A DNA stretch of 64,000 nt from Candidatus Omnitrophota bacterium (GTDB taxonomy: Bacteria; Ratteibacteria; UBA8468; B48-G9; JAFGKM01): NCBI GenBank assembly GCA_023819375.1, contig JAMWDI010000005.1:136423-200422 (forward strand), in the 5' to 3' direction. Below are positions 9,309-18,278 of this stretch, piece after piece. The notes under the pieces were generated by a model that was not told the origin of the DNA, did not search any database, and was given only the letters and a program-made list of their open reading frames with translations. How positions within the stretch are numbered: the stretch's first letter is position 1; every line of letters begins with the position of its first letter. The position numbers were made by a program, and so were the translations under genes.

Positions 9309-9865
9309 AGGACATTCTGGCCATCCTATTGTTATTTTTGTTGCTATTTATATGTATCAAATTAATCAAATAGATTTTCTCCACAATTGGCGCCAAATCT
9401 ATTTCTAAATTACATTTTTTTCTTTTCAAATTAACTTTCTTCTTACCTTGATTTTTAAGTATAACAATGGATTTGTCTTATATCTTTGTCCTCCATTTGC
9501 TCTACGTTTCTTTAATATCTATCCATTTGTAGATATTAACATTTTTAATAACTTATTCCTCCATTTTTGAAAATAACTATCACCTTGGATTCCTTAAATA
9601 AAAATGAAAACTTTACTCAAAAGAGAAATTAAAGTAAAATTAAAGTGGGAAAAAATTAATTTAAAAGAAGTGTTTTGTATTCAAGAAAAATAAATGAAAA
9701 GAAAAACTTTAAGAGTGAATTTTGCCTTTCATCAATCAAATTGTGTAAAATTTATTCAGAAAAAATTATGAATTATATTATAAGAAAATTAAAAGACAAA
9801 GAGTAAAAATTTAATTTTGACAAAAACGAGAAAATTGTTAAAACTAATTGATAAATAAAAATTTT
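9309..9865. other. Gene-poor stretch upstream of the element's left junction
   Basis: No convincing gene is present in these 557 bases. Two short frames (29 codons from 9605 and 25 codons from 9693) have no recognisable family and no strong ribosome-binding site. The last 60 bases resemble the sequence just upstream of the intact tRNA-Ser at 18167, which is also the 3' end of the integrase gene: ATTGTTAAAAC and ATTGATA are shared, as is an AATTTTGACAAAAA-like block. The stretch may be a shared tRNA promoter or the scar of an older related integrase. Confidence 0.5.
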
Positions 9866-9907
9866 GGAGGGGTCGCACAGTGGTCTAGTGCGGCGGATTG
9901 CTAATCC
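9866..9907 (+). repeat. Left attachment repeat: orphan 5' half of tRNA-Ser
   Basis: These 42 bases match the first 42 bases of the intact tRNA-Ser (18167-18208) with three differences. The match ends abruptly after the anticodon loop: CTAATCC is followed by CTTTT here and by GTTGG in the true tRNA. The last 19 bases, TGCGGCGGATTGCTAATCC, are identical and must contain the crossover. Two of the three differences (C13 and G23 here, T13 and A23 in the intact gene) are compensatory in the D-stem, so this copy is a former functional tRNA half and not random similarity. Confidence 0.88.
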
Positions 9908-9975
9908 CTTTTAAGCCATTTCTCTAAATTCCTGAAAAATCACTAAATCCATTCTCTATCAAGCATTTTACCCAC

Positions 9976-10027
9976 TTTTTCACTTTTTCAATTTTTTTCA
10001 TTTTTTTTCATTTTTTCACATTTTTTT
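9976..10027. repeat. Six T-tracts phased at about 8-10.5 bp (curved DNA or iteron-like)
   Basis: Six runs of 5-8 T, mostly followed by CA, have centres near 9978, 9986, 9995, 10004, 10013 and 10024. Phased A/T-tracts bend DNA. Several units read TTTTTCAC, which resembles a relaxed DnaA box and also occurs as TTTTTCACA in the dnaA-dnaN gap. The tracts lie 70-120 bp inside the left end of the element, a plausible spot for recombination architecture or an origin. Confidence 0.5.
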
Positions 10028-10321
10028 GGTACAAATACGACACAACTATATATTGTATTTTTTTGTTAGAATTTTTCATTTTAAATACTATATATTGTAT
10101 ACCACTAAACCCTTGAAAATTCTTGCTTAAAGAGATATAACTTAAGAAAACCCTTAATAGACAATGCTTTCCAAAACAAGTATAATTAAAACCATTGATT
10201 GACAACAATTAAGGGAGACACCCCACCCTTAAGAACTATATATTTTTTGTAGGAGATAAAAAATGCTGTCCAGAGGGTATGTTAATGAAAAACCATTGAT
10301 AATCAATATAAGAGAGAGACC

Positions 10322-10385
10322 CTCCCCCCCTTAAGGACTATATATTTTGACTGGGTTAAAAATATAGTCCATTAGGGGAGGGAGT
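10322..10385. repeat. Imperfect large palindrome between repeat units 2 and 3
   Basis: GGACTATATATTTT at 10335-10348 is followed after 9 bases by its near reverse complement AAAAATATAGTCC at 10358-10370. The symmetry extends outward as a C-rich arm (CCCTCCCC) against a G-rich arm (GGGGAGGG). The result is a potential cruciform or hairpin of about 25 bp per arm with a short loop. It places an inverted partial copy of the repeat end beside the direct repeats. Confidence 0.6.
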
Positions 10386-10640
10386 ATAGAATTCCTTGAT
10401 AGACAATAAATAGAGGAGCCCCCCACCCTTAAGAACTATATATTTTGGAGACACTCCAGAAAAGCATATTTTTTACAAAATAGTAAATAAATAATGCTGT
10501 TTAAAGGAGAATAGTTTAAATCCATTAATTGATAATAAACATAAATACTTCCACCCCTAAAGGACTATATATTTTTAAAAGTTATATTTTCAAATTAAAT
10601 TATTTTTGATGTATAATAAACTTAAAAAGAAGAATTACAT

Positions 10641-10805
10641 ATGGTAAAAGAAACAATTATAAAATCAAAAAAGATAAATTTTTTGAAAAATACTATTAAA
10701 GAAGCGATTTTAGAAGCGTTAGAAGAGATAGGACTTGCAAAAGCAATTGAAGAGGGTATAAAAACAAAAAATAAGAAAAAGTTAAAAATGCTGTCCAGAA
10801 GGTAG
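10641..10805 (+). CDS. Small 54-residue protein, possible antitoxin remnant
   Basis: The ATG at 10641 opens 54 codons ending at TAG 10803-10805. The product is Lys/Glu-rich with a helical stretch (EAILEALEEIGLAKAIEEG) of the type seen in the C-terminal part of Phd/RelB-like antitoxins. A TATAAT (10612-10617) precedes it. Its last five codons (MLSRR) come from the start of repeat unit 5, so the frame has either been extended or terminated by the repeat. No toxin partner follows directly. It may be a truncated antitoxin or a spurious frame. Confidence 0.4.
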   Translation: MVKETIIKSKKINFLKNTIKEAILEALEEIGLAKAIEEGIKTKNKKKLKMLSRR

Positions 10806-10881
10806 TATGTGAAAACTATTGATAATCAATATAAAAGGGATACCCCCACCCCTAAAGGACTATATATTTTGAAAATTGGGG

Positions 10882-10887
10882 TATAAT
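10882..10887 (+). promoter_or_regulatory. -10 box of the toxin-antitoxin operon
   Basis: A perfect TATAAT lies 24 bp before the antitoxin ATG, with AAAGGAG as ribosome-binding site. Seventeen bp upstream the -35 position falls inside the conserved ACTATATATTTT end of repeat unit 5. Anything bound to the repeat could therefore block or assist this promoter. Confidence 0.5.
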
Positions 10888-10910
10888 TAATATAAACAAA
10901 AGGAGAAAAA

Positions 10911-11120
10911 ATGAATATCAAAGTAAAAGAATTCTTGGTTGATAGAAAAGGAAGACCAAAAGGAGTAGTTTTGAATATTTCTGAATACAAAAAACTTTTA
11001 AAATTTATAGAAGATATACAAGATACACTTGACTTAAAAGAAGCAATAAAGACAAATAAAGGGTTTATTTCAGAGGAAGAGTTGTTAAAGAGATTAAAAC
11101 TAAAAGGGATTAATGTATAA
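10911..11120 (+). CDS. Antitoxin, Phd/RelB-like
   Basis: The 69-residue product begins MNIKVKEFLVDRKGRPKGVVLNISEYKKLL, a beta-hairpin plus helix arrangement typical of Phd/YefM/RelB-class antitoxins (DNA-binding N-terminus, with the 'V(V/I)LNISEYKKL' core). The C-terminal helical part (KTNKGFISEEELLKRLKLKG) would cover the toxin. It overlaps the downstream RelE-like toxin gene by 8 bp, the usual antitoxin-first order. The RBS AAAGGAG sits 5-6 bases before the ATG. The complex would normally repress its own promoter at 10882. Confidence 0.82.
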   Translation: MNIKVKEFLVDRKGRPKGVVLNISEYKKLLKFIEDIQDTLDLKEAIKTNKGFISEEELLKRLKLKGINV

Positions 11121-11364
11121 AGTAATTTTTGATGATAGAATAGAAAAAGATTTAAGTAAAATTCCTGCCAGAATAATAAAAAATATCTTCAAAAAAATAA
11201 CTCTAATTAAAGAAAATCCATATAGTAAGGGAGTAAAAAAACTTATTGGTATAGAAGGTTATAGATTAAGGATAGGAAATTATAGAGTACTTTTCCAAAT
11301 AGATGAAGAGACAAAAACAATAAAAATTTATAGGATAATCCATAGAAAAGATGCTTATAAATGA
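11113..11364 (+). CDS. RelE/ParE-family toxin
   Basis: The 83-residue product has the compact RelE fold signature: YKVIFDDRIEKDLSKIP at the N-terminus, a central helix, then GYRLRIGNYRVLFQIDEETKTIKIYRIIHRKDAYK. The sequence (Y)RLRIGNYRVLF and the basic HRKDAYK tail with Arg, His and Tyr match RelE-type ribosome-dependent mRNA interferases. Its start lies inside the end of the antitoxin gene. Its stop codon overlaps the ATG of the next small gene, suggesting one transcript. It probably stabilises the element or acts in stress or phage defence; that role is inferred. Confidence 0.88.
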   Translation: MYKVIFDDRIEKDLSKIPARIIKNIFKKITLIKENPYSKGVKKLIGIEGYRLRIGNYRVLFQIDEETKTIKIYRIIHRKDAYK

Positions 11365-11501
11365 TGAAAAGAATTAGTTTACCAGATTTAAAAAAGAAGA
11401 TATTTATTTATGAGACATTACAATCAGAGAAAGAAGTAAAAGAGAAAAAGATAAAAGGTCCTTTTAAATCTGGAAAAGAAGTATTAAAGTTAATTAAATG
11501 A
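11361..11501 (+). CDS. Small 46-residue protein, antitoxin-like
   Basis: The ATG at 11361 overlaps the toxin stop as ATGA. The product is MMKRISLPDL..., Lys-rich, ending GPFKSGKEVLKLIK, a tail resembling the toxin-covering end of small antitoxins. Its stop overlaps the ATG (11498) of a broken RelE/HigB-like frame, which fits a second antitoxin-toxin pair in which the antitoxin may still be intact. No family match can be claimed on this length. Confidence 0.5.
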   Translation: MMKRISLPDLKKKIFIYETLQSEKEVKEKKIKGPFKSGKEVLKLIK

Positions 11502-11645
11502 AATATAATCTTTATCTTACTTCCACATTCCAGAAAAAATTAAAAATATCACTTCTATCTTATCTATGAATACAGAATTTTGTTTATTTTAGTGAGAGAT
11601 AAGATTTATCTAACAAACAAAGGAACTCACGAGGAAGTTTATTGA
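11498..11645 (+). pseudogene. Decayed RelE/HigB-like toxin
   Basis: A first frame from ATG 11498 reads MKYNLYLTSTFQKKLK and stops at 11567-11569. The adjacent frame then reads YEYRILFILVRDKIYLTNKGTHEEVY before TGA at 11643. The first part resembles the start of a RelE-like toxin and the second its core beta-strands (EYRIL-type). The total is well short of the usual 85-100 residues and the frame is broken, so an internal deletion plus a frameshift is likely. It follows the small antitoxin-like gene with an overlapping stop and start. Confidence 0.55.
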
Positions 11646-11735
11646 ATAGAAAGTTAATACAGAGTTGTTAATTTGAATTGTAATATTGTAAAATAAATAT
11701 GAAAAGCGAAATTTTAGTCAAAAAAGAGAAGATAA

Positions 11736-13076
11736 ATGAAACAAAAAATAAAACAATTTTTTTTATGGCTTCCACTGGTTCTTATTGGAGGGTTATTAAT
11801 CATAGGACTTGTTTATGTATTAAAAGAAAACTTTTTGGGGACATCAATTTCAATAGGTTTCGTTGTTTTTAGTTATGCAATAGCAATAGTTATGCCCGAG
11901 ATAATAGAAGAACTTTCTCGGCCAACAAAAATTACTCTTGGTATAATAATTAGCCTATCTCTTACAGGAATAGGAGTTTTGTATTTACAAGAAAAATTTT
12001 TAGTTTTAATAGGATGCACTCTCGGGTTGTTAATGATAAGAAAAGTGTTGTTAGTGATAGGGAAAAACATACAAGCAATAAACGCAAAAATAAAGGAGGC
12101 AAACCCCAAAATTAAACAATGGTTGAAGAATATCTTTTTGCTAATAGGTATTATGACAAGGGAAAATATTTTTAAAAGAAATTTTACACACTCTAAAGAA
12201 ACAGAAATGAAATGGGATGTTAAAGAATTATTTAAAATTGTGAATAAATCGGAGTTAAAATATAAAATACATGGAATAGTAGCAGTAGTTTATATTTTGT
12301 TTTTAACTCTTTTCTTTAATATTCTCGATAACAAAATTCTCCATAATAGTTCATTCTGGTGGATTAGCATTTTATTTTTGGGAATATTTGTTTTAATAGG
12401 ATTTATCCATACATTACTTGACACAATATCATGGCATGGAGTAAAAAATGGATTATTAAAATTTTTTGTTTATTACCCTCTTGTATTAGGAATATGTCTG
12501 TTTCTACACGGAAGAGTAACAGAAATAACTATTGATGGAGAAATAATAGAACCAGAAGAAAATGACAAAATACCAGTGTCTGATGTAGGAAAGTTAATAT
12601 TGCTTATGTATGGTTTGTTTATCTTTTATAGAGCAATTACCTTTTTTGTTTGGTGGGGAGAGCGCAAACAAGTTATAAATTGTTTAAAAAAAACAATAAT
12701 AGAACTATATCAATTTTTGACTAAATCATATAACTCAAAAAAAGAAATAATAAAAAATATAGAAGAGTTTCATCAAAAATTACAACATTGCCCTTTACCA
12801 ACAATAGATACCTTGGTTAAGAAAGAAATAGCCAAATTTTATCTCCGTATTTTTGAATTCAGTGAAAGATTAAAAGAAATTATGGAGACATCTGACAAAA
12901 GGTTTATAAAAAATAAAAATGGAGTATTAACGATAGTTTATGGTGATGAAGAATATTCACTGGGATACCTATGTGAACCATATGTTAAAGAAATAAAAGA
13001 AAATATAAAAAAATTAATGAAGACATATAGAATATCTAAATACGACATTGACATTCCTATGGTAAATTTTGAATAA
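11736..13076 (+). CDS. Multi-pass membrane protein of unknown function (element cargo)
   Basis: The 446-residue product has about eight hydrophobic segments. Three to four lie in residues 8-110 and further ones near 185-205, 210-235, 250-265 and 290-310. A charged loop sits at about 110-180, and the cytoplasmic-looking C-terminal tail of about 130 residues is helical. I do not recognise a family. It sits between the toxin-antitoxin genes and a DUF6804-like membrane gene, which begins right after its stop, so the two may form a membrane pair. As non-core cargo it could be a defence or abortive-infection effector, but no motif supports that directly. Confidence 0.75.
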   Translation: MKQKIKQFFLWLPLVLIGGLLIIGLVYVLKENFLGTSISIGFVVFSYAIAIVMPEIIEELSRPTKITLGIIISLSLTGIGVLYLQEKFLVLIGCTLGLLMIRKVLLVIGKNIQAINAKIKEANPKIKQWLKNIFLLIGIMTRENIFKRNFTHSKETEMKWDVKELFKIVNKSELKYKIHGIVAVVYILFLTLFFNILDNKILHNSSFWWISILFLGIFVLIGFIHTLLDTISWHGVKNGLLKFFVYYPLVLGICLFLHGRVTEITIDGEIIEPEENDKIPVSDVGKLILLMYGLFIFYRAITFFVWWGERKQVINCLKKTIIELYQFLTKSYNSKKEIIKNIEEFHQKLQHCPLPTIDTLVKKEIAKFYLRIFEFSERLKEIMETSDKRFIKNKNGVLTIVYGDEEYSLGYLCEPYVKEIKENIKKLMKTYRISKYDIDIPMVNFE

Positions 13077-13080
13077 AAAC

Positions 13081-13406
13081 ATGTTCCTTAAAATAATAAT
13101 ATGGTTAAAAAATAATTGGTTTAAGGTTATAGTAATATTTCTTTTATTAAAAGCAGTAGGGGAAAATCCTTATTCATATTATCAATTTTTAAGATGGGTT
13201 GTTTCTCTTTCCAGTGGTTATTTGACTTATTCTTTTTTTCCTCAAAAAGATATGTCTGGGTTTGGATATTTGGTTTGATAACCATTTTATTCAATCCTGT
13301 GGAACCTTTTCATTTTTCAAAAGAAACCTGGCATATTTTAGATGTCATTGTAGTAATGGTTTACTTCTTTGTTCTTATTAAGAGGGAAACAAAACAACGA
13401 AAATGA
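13081..13406 (+). pseudogene. DUF6804-like small membrane protein split by a frameshift
   Basis: Starting at ATG 13081 the first frame reads to SYYQFLRWVVSLSSGYLTYSFF and then ends in an unrelated tail at 13278. The -1 frame continues with KRYVWVWIFGLITILFNPVEPFHFSKETWHILDV up to 13406. Joined together they resemble the DUF6804 family (YYQxLRWVV..., FGxxxxLFNPxxPxHxxxExWxxID). The switch point is a run of seven T near 13230-13240, where T TTT TTT is read in the zero frame. Either one T is missing, giving a pseudogene or sequencing error, or the ribosome slips by -1. The gene follows the 446-residue membrane gene within 4 bp. Confidence 0.65.
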
Positions 13407-14013
13407 ATAAGAAAAGAAAATAAATTAAATTTATCTTTAAGTTAGTTTGTGAACTAACTACTACTTTCTGTGGATATTTATAATTAAAACATAATTACAA
13501 CCACAGATGCTTAACTCTACTCCTACTTTGAAATAAAAAAGCAAAATACTATTCAAAATAACCTTCCCTTTATAGGCAAAATAATTTCCCCTGAAATTTT
13601 TCTGTGGGGTCATAACCAGTAGGCAAGGGTGGAAAGTATGGGGATTGGGGGGGTACTCCCCTATTCATATGTAGTAATTTTAATAAAAATGAATTTTACT
13701 CCTCTATAGGGATATCAATGATTTTAGCGATTTTAACAAGGAAAAAAAGTCAAAAAAAGTAATACATTATATGAAGGGAAAAATAAAAGTGAAAGTTATT
13801 CATTTAGAGTTAATACATTACATAAAGAAAAGATAAAGATGGAAAAAAGATAGTAATTCCAATGAAGCAGAAGTTTTTTGAAAGAATATCAATAATTTTG
13901 GTAGTTTTGAGGATAAGTTTAAAAGAAGATGATGACCTAAAAAGTAATATATTAATAAAAAAGTAAAAAAGAATGAAGTTTTAAACAAGGGGAAAAATAG
14001 AGAGGGAAAAAAT
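13407..14013. other. Non-coding stretch inside the element with diverged internal repeats
   Basis: No gene is convincing here. A block around 13690-13776 is repeated with divergence at 13861-13950: ATATCAATGATTTTAGC against ATATCAATAATTTTGGT, each followed by AAAAAGTAATA. The motif TAATACATTAYATRAAG occurs at 13760-13776 and 13811-13827. A frame of 34 codons from 13862 lacks a partner in the other copy, where a stop interrupts it. G-runs occur at 13636-13661. The stretch ends with the promoter-proximal region of the DUF5659 gene. Confidence 0.45.
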
Positions 14014-14310
14014 ATGGAAAAAACCTTTAGAACATCAGATTTCTATCTTACTGCTTACCTTCTTTGTAATGGGTTGGATTTCTCTTACGAAAGAGATGCT
14101 GTAAAAAATAAGGTTGTTTTTATTTTTAAGGATAAAGAAAAAGCAGAAAAATTGGTTGAAGATTATTATCGAGACAGGGCAAAAATCTCCCCAAAAAGGT
14201 ATGTTGAAGTAATTTACTCTCTAAAAAGTTTTCTTTTTGCCCAAAAGGAGGATGGAAATGGAAATAAAAATAGAAATGAAAAAAATTTTGGGAGATACAC
14301 TGCCTCCTAA
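14014..14310 (+). CDS. DUF5659-like protein of mobile elements
   Basis: The 98-residue product starts MEKTFRTSDFYLTAYLLCNGL and contains KVVFIFKDKEKAEKLVEDYYRDRAKISPKRYVEVIYSLKS. This is the pattern of the DUF5659 domain, common next to primase genes in phages and integrated elements. Its biochemical role is unknown. Its last 25 residues are read through the start of the primase gene, so the genuine fold is probably the first 75 residues. AGAGGGAAAAAAT precedes the ATG as a weak RBS. It opens the replication and integration operon that runs to the integrase. Confidence 0.72.
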   Translation: MEKTFRTSDFYLTAYLLCNGLDFSYERDAVKNKVVFIFKDKEKAEKLVEDYYRDRAKISPKRYVEVIYSLKSFLFAQKEDGNGNKNRNEKNFGRYTAS

Positions 14311-14854
14311 TGAAATTCTCAAAGTTTTCCCTCAAGGTAGAGAGTATATAACGAATAAATTAACTTATCTCCTTAATAAGCGTCAGCAATTATTAAACAG
14401 ATTTAAACATTTTCTCAAAAGACAAGATTTAAACTTAGTTGAACTTATTCTTATTAGAGATACATTTAAAGAACGTGTAAAAAAGATAAATAAAGAAATA
14501 AGAAGATTAAAAAGGTATTTAACTTCAGAAATTCAAGATACCCACCTTGAAATAGATATTAGAACCATTAAAGAGAGAATTAATATTATAGATATCTTTG
14601 AAGAGTTGTATCCAGATGCCAAACTTTATAAAACCAGTCGGACCGTCTATACTAACTGTCCTTTTCACGACGACAGACATCCATCCTTTCACATTTACCC
14701 TAAAACTTGCACCTTTTATTGTTATGGATGCGGTGTTAAAGGAGATGTGGTTGATTTAGTTAAGTTATCAAAAGGTTTGACTTTTAAAGAAGCAGTGTTT
14801 TTTTTGAAAAATCTTATAAAAGGAGGAAGATATGAAGAGGAAATTTTTAAATGA
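14258..14854 (+). CDS. CHC2 zinc-finger DNA primase-like protein
   Basis: The frame is open from 14237 (TTG). I choose ATG 14258 because AAGGAGG (14245-14251) lies six bases upstream; ATG 14252 touches that site. The product of about 198 residues has an N-terminal helical part and a C-terminal zinc-finger primase domain with CPFHDDRHPSFHIY and CYGCGVKGDVVDLVKLSKGLTFKEAV, the CHC2 pattern of DnaG primases. No Toprim catalytic domain follows, so it is a stand-alone zinc module. It probably cooperates with the downstream ATPase in element replication. It overlaps the preceding and following genes. Confidence 0.85.
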   Translation: MEIKIEMKKILGDTLPPNEILKVFPQGREYITNKLTYLLNKRQQLLNRFKHFLKRQDLNLVELILIRDTFKERVKKINKEIRRLKRYLTSEIQDTHLEIDIRTIKERINIIDIFEELYPDAKLYKTSRTVYTNCPFHDDRHPSFHIYPKTCTFYCYGCGVKGDVVDLVKLSKGLTFKEAVFFLKNLIKGGRYEEEIFK

Positions 14855-16334
14855 AATAGATGAAATTTTATTGAAAGAGAAAAAAGATAGTTTATCAAAA
14901 GAAGAGTTAAAATTATTAGGGTATGAAGACGATGTATATATCCGGGGGGTAGTCAAGGAAAAGTTAGAGAAAAACAAGATAGAACTTACTTCTCCAACTT
15001 TTCCTCAACTCCGGGATGAAATTATAAAATATTACCCTCTTGATGTTAAACTTTTAAAGACACTCCTTGCTGTGTATGTGGCTAATATGTATGAAGATGA
15101 AACTGAACTACCTGTATGGCTTTTAATCATTGCTCCACCATCTTATGGGAAGACAAAGGCAGTTATACTACTACAAGATTTACCCAATACTTATTTTATT
15201 TCCGAATTAACACCTCATACCTTCTTATCAGGGGATAAAAATACAGAAAACTCTTTGTTATTTAGGTTACCAAAAAAGGCAGTTTTGATATTCAAGGACT
15301 TTACCACTCTTATGGAACTTCCACCTGAAAAAAGAAGCGTGATATTGGCTCAAATGCGAGAAATCTACGATGGTCAGTACATAAAAGAGTTTGGCAGTAG
15401 CACCACGAAAAAATGGAGTGGTAAAATCGGCATCATTGCTTGTGCTACTACTAACTGGTTTTCCTTCCACCATTCAAAGACGATAATAGGGGAACGATTT
15501 TTATTTTACAGAATTTATTACTCTGACGATGAGTTTAATTCTATTAACCAACAAATTTTGAGTAGAAGAATTGATAAAAATGTAGATGTCCACCTAAAAG
15601 GGGTGATTAAAGAGTTTATATCAAATCTTAAAGATTATTCTTATGAACTTAATGAACAAGAGAAAAACTATATTATCAAAACAGCAAACTTCATTGCCAA
15701 GGCAAGATGTGCAGTAGTAAGAGATGGCTACAAAAAAGAAATAATTAACATACCAGAACCTGAAGCACCTTTTAGGATAGTACAACAATTAAGATTGTTT
15801 TATTCAAAACTGCAAACTATTGATAATAACATAGAAGATAATTTAGATGTTATAAAGAAAGTGATTTTAAGTAGTATATCAGAAGAGAGAAGAAAAGTAA
15901 TTGAATTCTTACTTACAAGAGAAGAAGCGGATTTTCAAGAGATAAGGCAGGTAGTTAACATCTCTGACAGCACTTTAAGAAGGACGTTGGAGGACCTAGA
16001 TGTATTGGGAGTTGTTAACAAAGAGAGTAGGGGCAAGGATTACTGGCACCTTAAAGGGGAATACAAAGAAATTTTTGTCCAAGGAAAAATTGAAAACCCC
16101 ACTCCCATAAAGGATTTTGCCTGTTTTTCCTTCACTCACCACCCCCCATACCAGATGGTAGAAAAAATATACGAGGAATACTCTAAAAAGGGAGAAAAAG
16201 CAAAATTTTTACAGCGTTTTCAGAATTATTTAGGAGTTAATGCTTTAGAAGAGTTGGATAAAATACCCATTGAAGATTTAAAACACTTTATCAATGAAAT
16301 GACGAATTTTTGGATAAAGGTTGATTTAAAATAA
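14832..16334 (+). CDS. P-loop ATPase/helicase-like replication protein with C-terminal winged helix
   Basis: The 500-residue product carries a Walker A motif APPSYGKT near residue 100, a Walker B-like strand AVLIFKDF near 150, and a sensor-like segment IIACATTNWF near 200, in the order expected of AAA+ or SF3/D5-like helicases. Residues about 345-405 look like a winged helix (DFQEIRQVVNISDSTLRRTLEDLDVLGVV). AGGAGGAAGAT before the ATG is a strong RBS, and the start overlaps the primase gene by 23 bp. A primase zinc finger followed by such an ATPase is a typical plasmid/phage-satellite replication pair. Helicase activity is inferred. Confidence 0.75.
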   Translation: MKRKFLNEIDEILLKEKKDSLSKEELKLLGYEDDVYIRGVVKEKLEKNKIELTSPTFPQLRDEIIKYYPLDVKLLKTLLAVYVANMYEDETELPVWLLIIAPPSYGKTKAVILLQDLPNTYFISELTPHTFLSGDKNTENSLLFRLPKKAVLIFKDFTTLMELPPEKRSVILAQMREIYDGQYIKEFGSSTTKKWSGKIGIIACATTNWFSFHHSKTIIGERFLFYRIYYSDDEFNSINQQILSRRIDKNVDVHLKGVIKEFISNLKDYSYELNEQEKNYIIKTANFIAKARCAVVRDGYKKEIINIPEPEAPFRIVQQLRLFYSKLQTIDNNIEDNLDVIKKVILSSISEERRKVIEFLLTREEADFQEIRQVVNISDSTLRRTLEDLDVLGVVNKESRGKDYWHLKGEYKEIFVQGKIENPTPIKDFACFSFTHHPPYQMVEKIYEEYSKKGEKAKFLQRFQNYLGVNALEELDKIPIEDLKHFINEMTNFWIKVDLK

Positions 16335-16345
16335 GGAGGTATAAG

Positions 16346-16765
16346 ATGAAAGTTTTAACTCCTATAGAAGCGATTAAAAAAAGATGTAAAGAATGTCTGG
16401 GATATGAACAAGACCCAAAAGAATGTAATGGGAAAGAGACAGAGGGACTTATAGGAACACAGGAAGACATTATAGGCAGGAATTATGAATGTCCTCTATA
16501 TCTCTATAGGACAGGAAATAGACCATTAAAGGAAGAGAAGTCAAGATTGAAAGAGTTAAATATTAAGATATTGTCTCCTATTAAAGCCATTAAGGAATAT
16601 TGTTTAAGATGCTGTAATGGAGATAGGAAGTATTTAAAGAATTGTCCAAGCCAAGATTGTCCTTTATGGGAATATAGGTTAGGTAAAAATCCTCATTTAA
16701 AAGGAAAAAGAAAAAAACCCATAGGGTTAAGACCTATTAAAATAGGGGTAAAAAATGGTAGTTGA
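16346..16765 (+). CDS. Cys-rich protein with two metal-binding-like repeats
   Basis: The 139-residue product is an internal duplication. Each half begins (L)(T/S)PI(E/K)AIK followed by a C-x2-C pair (KRCKECLG, EYCLRCCNG), a second Cys region, and the closing motif CPL(Y/W)xYRxG(N/K)xP. Similar proteins are common in prophages and integrated elements and are presumed to bind zinc. AAGGAGG precedes the ATG by five bases. It lies between the ATPase and the excisionase, and a 34-codon membrane peptide gene begins inside its 3' end. Function unknown; nucleic-acid binding is plausible. Confidence 0.75.
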   Translation: MKVLTPIEAIKKRCKECLGYEQDPKECNGKETEGLIGTQEDIIGRNYECPLYLYRTGNRPLKEEKSRLKELNIKILSPIKAIKEYCLRCCNGDRKYLKNCPSQDCPLWEYRLGKNPHLKGKRKKPIGLRPIKIGVKNGS

Positions 16766-16859
16766 TGTGGGATTTTTTAAAAAATTAGACACGATTTTTA
16801 TCTGGTTAATAGTTTTATACTACCTAATAAAAAACAAAGGGATTTTTTTAAAAAAATGA
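16755..16859 (+). CDS. 34-residue single-pass membrane peptide
   Basis: The ATG at 16755 lies inside the end of the Cys-rich gene and the stop at 16857-16859 overlaps the excisionase ATG as ATGA. The product is MVVDVGFFKKLDTIFIWLIVLYYLIKNKGIFLKK with a hydrophobic helix at residues 12-26 and a basic tail. The double overlap with genes on both sides, which fills the gap exactly, argues that it is translated in the operon. A holin-like or leak-pore role is possible but unsupported. Confidence 0.5.
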   Translation: MVVDVGFFKKLDTIFIWLIVLYYLIKNKGIFLKK

Positions 16860-17080
16860 GTAATGAAATTAGAAAAAGATTACTAACAATTAAGGAAGCC
16901 AGTGAATATCTCGGAATATCAGTTAGAGGACTTTACTTAATGGTTTATAGAAGACAGATACCATTTGTTAAACTTGGAGGGAAAATAAGATTTGATGTTA
17001 AAAAACTTGATGAATGGATAGAGAAAAACACTATACCATCAGCAGAAGATTTGATTGAAAAAAAGATTATGTTAAAATAG
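16856..17080 (+). CDS. Excisionase-family helix-turn-helix protein
   Basis: The 74-residue product reads LLTIKEASEYLGISVRGLYLMVYRRQIPFVKLGGKIRFDVKKLDEWIEKN. This is the winged MerR-like helix-turn-helix of the HTH_17/excisionase family (TIKEASEYLGIS...RxxIPxxKxGxxxRF). It lies six bases before the integrase ATG and overlaps the small membrane peptide gene. As an Xis-like factor it would set recombination direction at the tRNA-Ser attachment site; it may also repress the operon. Confidence 0.88.
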   Translation: MSNEIRKRLLTIKEASEYLGISVRGLYLMVYRRQIPFVKLGGKIRFDVKKLDEWIEKNTIPSAEDLIEKKIMLK

Positions 17081-17086
17081 AATAAA

Positions 17087-18181
17087 ATGGGAAGAGTATT
17101 TCAAATAGGGAAAACTTGGTATATTGATGTATCCTATAAGGGGAAGAGAATAAGAGAAGCAGTTGGTAAAGATAAAAAACTTGCCATTACTATACTAAAG
17201 AAAAAAGAGATTGAACTTATTGAGAACAGACATCTGGATATAAAAAGAAATGCAAAGGTTAAATTTTCTGATTTTTCAACGTACTTTCTTAATACATACT
17301 CAAAAGTAAATAAAAAAAGTTGGAAGAGAGACCAATTAAGCATAAACCATTTAAATAAGTTTTTTGGTAGTAAATTTCTATATGAGATAACAAGTAAAGA
17401 CATAGAAGAATATAAGAAAAAACGATTAGAAACAGGAATAAAAACATCTACCCTTAATAGGGAACTTGCTTGTTTAAAAACAATACTAAATAAAGCAGTA
17501 GAATGGGAATATTTAAAAGAGACACCACCAAAGATAAAACTATTTAAGGAAAATAACCAGAGAGTAAGATATTTAACAGAAAATGAAGCAAAAACTTTAA
17601 TAGATTTATCCCCAGAACCATTAAAGGGTATAATAATAATTGCATTAAATACAGGTATGAGACAAGGAGAAATATTAAATCTTAAATGGAAAGATATTGA
17701 TTTTAAGGAGAAAATAATTACCATATGGGATACAAAGAGCAAAGAAAAAAGATATATACCTATAAATGAGATTGTTTATAACACATTACTAAATATTGAT
17801 AGAAATCCAGAAAGTGAATATGTATTTTATGGAGAAGACCCTAAAAAACCTATTTCAGGAAGTTATATAACACATTCATTTAACAGGATAGTAAAAAAAG
17901 CAGGGATAAAAGATTTTAGATTTCACGATTTAAGACATACATTTGCAAGTTGGCTTGTAATGAAAGGAGTAAACTTGAAAACTATACAGGAATTACTTGG
18001 ACATAAAGACCAAAGAATGACGTTAAGATATTCACATTTATCCCCTGAAGTAAAAAAAGAAGCAGTGGAAATTCTATCAGAGAATTTTAATTTTGGCAAA
18101 AATACGGCAAAAGTCAATTTTAACAAAAATAAAAAAATTGTTAAAACCATTGATAGACAAAGGATTGGAGGGGTAGCATAG
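17087..18181 (+). CDS. int: Tyrosine recombinase (integrase) of the tRNA-Ser element
   Basis: The 364-residue product has an N-terminal AP2-like arm-binding start (GRVFQIGKTWYIDVSYKGKR), a SAM-like core-binding domain (about 60-150) and a catalytic domain. The active-site set is complete: Arg in NTGMRQGEIL, Lys in the beta-hairpin (DTKSKEKR), His-x-x-Arg in HDLRHTF, His in LLGHKDQ and the nucleophile Tyr in LRYSHL. The last five codons (GGVA and TAG) are the first 15 bases of the tRNA-Ser gene. The recombinase gene is thus physically fused to its own attachment site, and its stop codon is tRNA positions 13-15. It catalyses insertion at the tRNA anticodon region. Confidence 0.95.
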   Translation: MGRVFQIGKTWYIDVSYKGKRIREAVGKDKKLAITILKKKEIELIENRHLDIKRNAKVKFSDFSTYFLNTYSKVNKKSWKRDQLSINHLNKFFGSKFLYEITSKDIEEYKKKRLETGIKTSTLNRELACLKTILNKAVEWEYLKETPPKIKLFKENNQRVRYLTENEAKTLIDLSPEPLKGIIIIALNTGMRQGEILNLKWKDIDFKEKIITIWDTKSKEKRYIPINEIVYNTLLNIDRNPESEYVFYGEDPKKPISGSYITHSFNRIVKKAGIKDFRFHDLRHTFASWLVMKGVNLKTIQELLGHKDQRMTLRYSHLSPEVKKEAVEILSENFNFGKNTAKVNFNKNKKIVKTIDRQRIGGVA

Positions 18182-18257
18182 TGGTCTAATGCGGCGGATT
18201 GCTAATCCGTTGGTCGGTCGAAAGGCCGGCCCGTGGGTTCGAATCCCACCCCCTCCG
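18167..18257 (+). tRNA. tRNA-Ser (anticodon GCT)
   Basis: The 91-base gene has acceptor arms GGAGGGG/CCCCTCC, a D-stem GCAT/ATGC, an anticodon loop TTGCTAA (GCT, reading AGC/AGU), a long GC-rich variable arm (GGTCGG...CCGGCC) typical of serine tRNAs and a T-arm GTGGG TTCGAAT CCCAC. CCA is not encoded. The 5' half and upstream promoter region are supplied by the integrated element, while the 3' half is chromosomal. Its first 15 bases are shared with the integrase coding sequence. Confidence 0.97.
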
Positions 18258-18278
18258 CCGGAGCCCCGTCCTCCGAAG

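Follow-up and report, generated by a model that had tools for sequence, protein, structure and literature searches.

An 8.3-kb integrase element that rebuilds the front half of tRNA-Ser(GCT) in a Candidatus Omnitrophota bacterium, and the source of its integrase stop codon

A mobile element of 8.3 kb, measured from start to start of its attachment (att) copies, is inserted in a tRNA-Ser(GCT) gene of a Candidatus Omnitrophota bacterium, and the front half of the tRNA has been rebuilt. The element lies in a 64,000-nucleotide (nt) stretch of assembly GCA_023819375.1 (contig JAMWDI010000005.1, positions 136,423 to 200,422), here called the window, and all window features described below are on the forward strand. 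The reading proposed here, which is held with high confidence as a whole, is that the element belongs, as a P22-type tyrosine-integrase element, to the rare 5'-half class, that the stop codon of its integrase gene (int) was inherited with the tRNA allele that the element carries, and that the tRNA has been invaded at least twice.

An intact tRNA-Ser(GCT), found by ARAGORN at 18167..18259, takes its 5' half from the element; it is the sole intact copy in the window and the only tRNA-Ser(GCT) detected in the genome. The other end of the element is marked by a cognate fragment in the same orientation, a displaced 5' half at 9866..9907 (the left att site), and the element body occupies 9908..18166 between the two att copies. 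The recombinase gene stands at one end: int (17087..18181) encodes a tyrosine integrase of 364 amino acids that matches PF00589 (E=1.5e-41) and phrog_1 (E=5e-84), with P22/epsilon34-type phage integrases among the matches, and it overlaps the tRNA by 15 nt. These are the marks of a tyrosine-integrase element that targets a tRNA gene, and since the displaced fragment is a 5' half lying upstream of the tRNA, the element is a further case of the known class of 5'-half integration.

The likely course of integration follows from this layout. The element carries a copy of the tRNA-Ser(GCT) 5' half at the end of int, and recombination around the anticodon loop would join that copy to the host 3' half. 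The outcome is displayed by the anatomy: the right end has a whole tRNA again, and the left end keeps a displaced 5' half. The halves are identical from their last difference, at position 23, to the end of the repeat at position 42, which places strand exchange probably within 18190..18208, a region that spans the anticodon loop.

Two tRNA halves and the integrase stop codon

The two 42-nt halves (9866-9907 and 18167-18208) differ at exactly three sites, which in linear count are position 9 (C at the left, A at the right), position 13 (C and T) and position 23 (G and A). Linear positions 13 and 23 form the canonical 13-22 pair of the D-stem in standard tRNA numbering (18179 with 18189 in the right copy), so the right copy has GCAT/ATGC, with U-A at 13-22, and the left copy has GCAC/GTGC, with C-G. 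The T13 of the right half is also the first base of the int stop codon TAG (18179..18181, tRNA positions 13-15), and the last four sense codons of int sit with the stop in the tRNA half. With C13 the codon would be CAG in the int frame, and the protein would gain eight more residues before a TAA 24 nt further on (positions 37-39), still within the 5' half. An earlier note on this DNA had described the three differences, the two D-stem partners and the CAG-to-TAG relation within the D-arm exactly, and the 42-nt comparison bears all of this out. The half contains nine complete stem pairs, and by our own arithmetic about 3% of the 11,480 placements of three differences in 42 nt strike both members of one of them; the coincidence is mild, and the alleles of related genomes explain it.

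Of the 34 related genomes searched, 20 gave a tRNA-Ser(GCT) gene that is readable at positions 9, 13 and 22. T13 with TAG at 13-15 is present in 19 of these 20 relatives, and the 13-22 pair is U-G in twelve, U-A in seven and an unpaired C/A in one (G008). In three congeners, G001, G002 and G003, the resident tRNA has the same 42 bases as the right half. A single base, T13 to C, separates the left half from the resident allele of G006, G007, G017 and G018, which has C9 and U13-G22. No integrase match was found in the fetched loci at the tRNA genes of G001, G002, G003 and G006. The two halves thus represent two resident alleles differing at 9 and 22 plus a single T-to-C step at 13, and because one substitution leads from U-G to either C-G or U-A, the difference can be explained without a double or compensatory event. 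The element's copy is the common allele of the genus (A9, U13-A22), and the left copy differs from the other common allele (C9, U13-G22) by the single C13 change, which may have arisen after displacement and loss of function.

The stop codon itself appears to be a property of tRNA sequence. In tRNAs A14 is nearly invariant and position 15 is a purine, so U13 yields TAG or TAA at 13-15 in any frame that starts at position 1. Among the 133 distinct tRNAs of the fetched loci, the first stop in that frame is most commonly at 13 (39 tRNAs), and in the next frame it is most commonly at 8 (63 tRNAs). An open reading frame that runs from upstream into a same-strand tRNA will often end at these places, and the int stop is at 13-15 because U13 was inherited with the tRNA allele, not through co-adaptation.

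In the junctions compiled for homologs of the integrase, the place of the protein end varies. There are 25 same-strand junctions, in which the end of int points toward the 5' end of the tRNA, including that of the window (L005), and 22 in which the integrase faces the 3' end of the tRNA. Only one of the 25, the window itself, has its stop at tRNA positions 13-15. The majority of the same-strand homologs terminate ahead of the tRNA; three (L178, L183 and L186) stop further inside it, and in two, L006 and L131, both with C13, the int frame is open across the entire tRNA. One junction (L119) comes from a frameshifted integrase. A near homolog from the same order (L029, 63% identity over the C-terminal part) ends 6 nt ahead of a tRNA-Ser(TGA) that carries T13-A22. 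A TAG at this place is thus ruled out as a conserved terminus of these integrases. The L006 integrase (int 1501-2682) has the tail ...AHVAQLVEQSIRNAKIAGSNPAVGS, and the protein C-terminus of L006 and L131 would differ between the integrated and the excised form.

The earlier note went further than its observations, proposing that the element had evolved a compensated U13-A22 pair, that the new T had created the stop codon, and that tRNA fold and protein end were encoded by one base; spelled out as a model, this would make the left half, with C13-G22, the one that the host had at first, and the element's half would have been selected both for folding and for termination of int. Watson-Crick pairing at 13-22 in both halves and the use of T13 as the first base of TAG are what such a history would leave, and the allele survey largely refutes it all the same. 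U13 with TAG is found even in congeners whose loci have no integrase match, the commonest pair is the U-G intermediate, G008 has no pair at all, the right half is simply the resident allele of three congeners, and no other homologous integrase uses this stop. The model is now very improbable. Compensatory evolution at 13-22 and the TAG as an invention of the element are both rejected by the survey, and the proposed coupling fails at the 25 junctions, where the C13 relatives read on. The note had suggested aligning homologous junctions for covariation of the pair with TAG; T13-A22 with TAG proves not to be restricted to integrase-borne halves. Its statement that both halves are or were functional stands for the right half, which is part of the only detected tRNA-Ser(GCT) and so must work; for the left half the pair does not show it, as C13 may postdate displacement. 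The notion of one base co-selected for tRNA fold and protein end has been removed as unsupported.

The left half and a probable earlier invasion of the gene

The sequence directly before the left half is a probable relic of the 3' end of an earlier, related integrase gene (9806..9865). Left upstream sequence and tRNA half together are 83% identical to the 3' end of the resident int over a 102-nt alignment, and 9806-9865 translates as KFNFDKNEKIVKT where int has KVNFNKNKKIVKT. Over 62 nt the left upstream sequence and the int end give a local score of 32; none of 300 shuffles made by first-order resampling exceeded 23, and host upstream regions scored 7-13. The most likely origin of this stretch is an earlier related element that had already rebuilt the tRNA, and the left half is probably not the untouched original host half. 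The left copy would then be the worn end of that element, which is why at least two invasions of the tRNA are proposed. No third 5' half and no intact earlier element was found on the contig.

A different origin for the left end has also been considered: the left half and the 60 nt upstream of it would be undisturbed host DNA, and they would resemble the end of int because the element had at some time picked up the host promoter region along with the tRNA half. In G010 an insert without int carries a duplicated stretch made up of a 47-nt promoter and the 5' half, so that promoter capture or duplication seems to happen at this gene, and the left flank differs from congener to congener. Yet the left stretch translates like an integrase C-terminus and bears the TTGAW motif of element ends, its scores against six host upstream regions are no more than 9-12, with no match that is promoter-like and ends directly ahead of the tRNA half, and in a clean comparable element, that of G122, the two upstream regions are unlike each other. 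Capture is accordingly judged unlikely, although it keeps more weight than the compensated pair. The G122 element has the same layout as that of the window, with an intact tRNA-Ser(TGA), a 43-nt copy of the 5' half 12.5 kb upstream of it and an integrase of 47% identity ahead of that tRNA; its repeat ends at the tRNA edge, and upstream of its left half there is no similarity.

Another proposal concerns the expression of int and is compatible with the reading preferred here. While the element is integrated, ribonuclease P (RNase P) would cut the int transcript at 18166/18167 as it matures the tRNA, the stop codon would be lost and the non-stop int mRNA destroyed, and the circle, which has no complete tRNA, would express int. 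The stop of int does sit 13-15 nt within the tRNA, the stops of L178, L183 and L186 lie inside same-strand tRNAs, in L006 and L131 the frame crosses the tRNA from end to end, and a promoter scan between int and tRNA turned up no convincing site. Against this, the majority of homologs stop just ahead of the tRNA, so non-stop decay would not be general, and the overlap can be neutral because the tail of the integrase is not conserved. Removal of the int stop by RNase P in the integrated state is speculative and is regarded as improbable.

Several points weigh against the reading as a whole. The alleles of the relatives are taken from draft genomes. The 60-nt relic at the left is short and rich in A+T, which makes its origin from int likely, not certain, and neither the original host 5' half nor the left end of the supposed earlier element was found on the contig.

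The surroundings of the gene have also changed. The right-hand neighbours of the window tRNA are shared with G001 and G003, where the tRNA is undisturbed, and the left flank varies between genomes; no clean empty site with a conserved left flank was found, as the left neighbours differ in G001, G002 and G003. Among congeners, the DNA to the left of the tRNA is rearranged, and G001 and G003 have kept that to its right. The genes directly before the tRNA in G001 sit 58 kb further left here (G000:C12:84377-88305 compared with window position 9866). A TATAAT-like box precedes tRNA-Ser(GCT) in most relatives, and a promoter scan of the int 3' end and the int-tRNA interval gave no convincing site suited to the tRNA, which would be transcribed together with int or behind it.

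The G010 insert (L110, G010:C13:24000-34619; tRNA c7782-7874, half c10433-10478) is 2.6 kb long and has no integrase gene. It carries HicAB-like genes and an exported phosphoesterase (names assigned by eye), has the 47 nt of promoter and the tRNA-Ser(GCT) 5' half at both ends, and its left arm resembles that of the window element. In a search for further copies with a tag from the conserved left-arm motif, only G010 matched without mismatch outside the window. In another genome (G020:C69:40-39521; L121, L093) tRNA-Ser(GCT) is apparently occupied from the other side, with an integrase that faces the 3' end and a 3'-half copy about 39 kb away.

Gene content and ends of the element

The TTGAW motif adjoins the tRNA edge at 18150..18166 and is common to the element ends of this integrase family. 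It occurs at 21 of 26 element junctions (homologous integrase loci, beside the tRNA), compared with 3 of 20 host tRNA upstream regions and 10% in a shuffled control, a frequency that is descriptive, as the motif was derived from the same junctions in which it was counted. The motif beside the tRNA is a probable integrase-binding site. At the left end, five direct repeats of about 58 nt (10188..10870) each contain a TTGAT core, a C-rich block and CTATATATTTT, and the core recurs at the right end beside the tRNA. These repeats are possibly arm-type integrase sites or replication iterons.

The remaining genes begin with a RelB-like antitoxin and ParE/RelE-type toxin pair (10911..11364), and a DUF5659 protein is also encoded between the tRNA halves. 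A primase-type CHC2 zinc-finger protein (14237..14854; PF01807, E=8.6e-20; PHROG DNA primase) is followed by a 500-amino-acid protein (14832..16334) with a weak C-terminal winged-helix match and no match in a comparison with solved structures, which possibly belongs to a replication module. An excisionase-like helix-turn-helix protein, Xis (16856..17080; PF12728, E=5.8e-16; Tn916-Xis, E=1.9e-5; PHROG excisionase), is encoded beside int. No phage structural genes were recognised among the element proteins scanned, and viral, phage and plasmid collections gave distant integrase matches only, at no more than 35% identity among the matches listed.

Relation to known elements and significance

The tRNA islands of the Islander collection share with this element a tRNA and a displaced fragment that flank the element, an on-board integrase and a crossover centred on the anticodon, and tandem occupation is known there; the displaced fragment here is a 5' half, a minority class in which 159 of 3919 islands fall (PMC4383910). 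In archaea, 5'-half integration has been reviewed as rebuilding a tRNA that is expressed from the integrase promoter, and the same review calls it uncommon among bacteria (PMC8371274); a case studied in detail is that of pTN3 (PMC5495485). The pTN3-like integrases have in common with the present case a rebuilt tRNA parted from its original promoter, but their integration disrupts the integrase gene, while here int is whole and ends inside the rebuilt tRNA. The integrases of phage Mx8 and SSV, as they are cited in PMC4383910, extend across their attachment site attP, so that coding sequence and attachment site overlap as they do here; in the window, the overlap with the tRNA half is limited to the stop and the four sense codons before it. 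The P22/epsilon34-type phage integrases (PHROG 1) share the sequence family and an excisionase gene beside int, but identity is about 33% or less, and no phage structural genes were recognised among the proteins scanned here.

The element documents, in a clade of uncultured bacteria, an integrase family whose genes abut or enter the 5' ends of tRNAs, and an apparently essential tRNA whose leader must now come from element DNA. Were the RNase P proposal true, Int would be silenced in the integrated form, excision would remove the tRNA fold and free int, and integrase-tRNA junctions would be natural sensors of the integration state.
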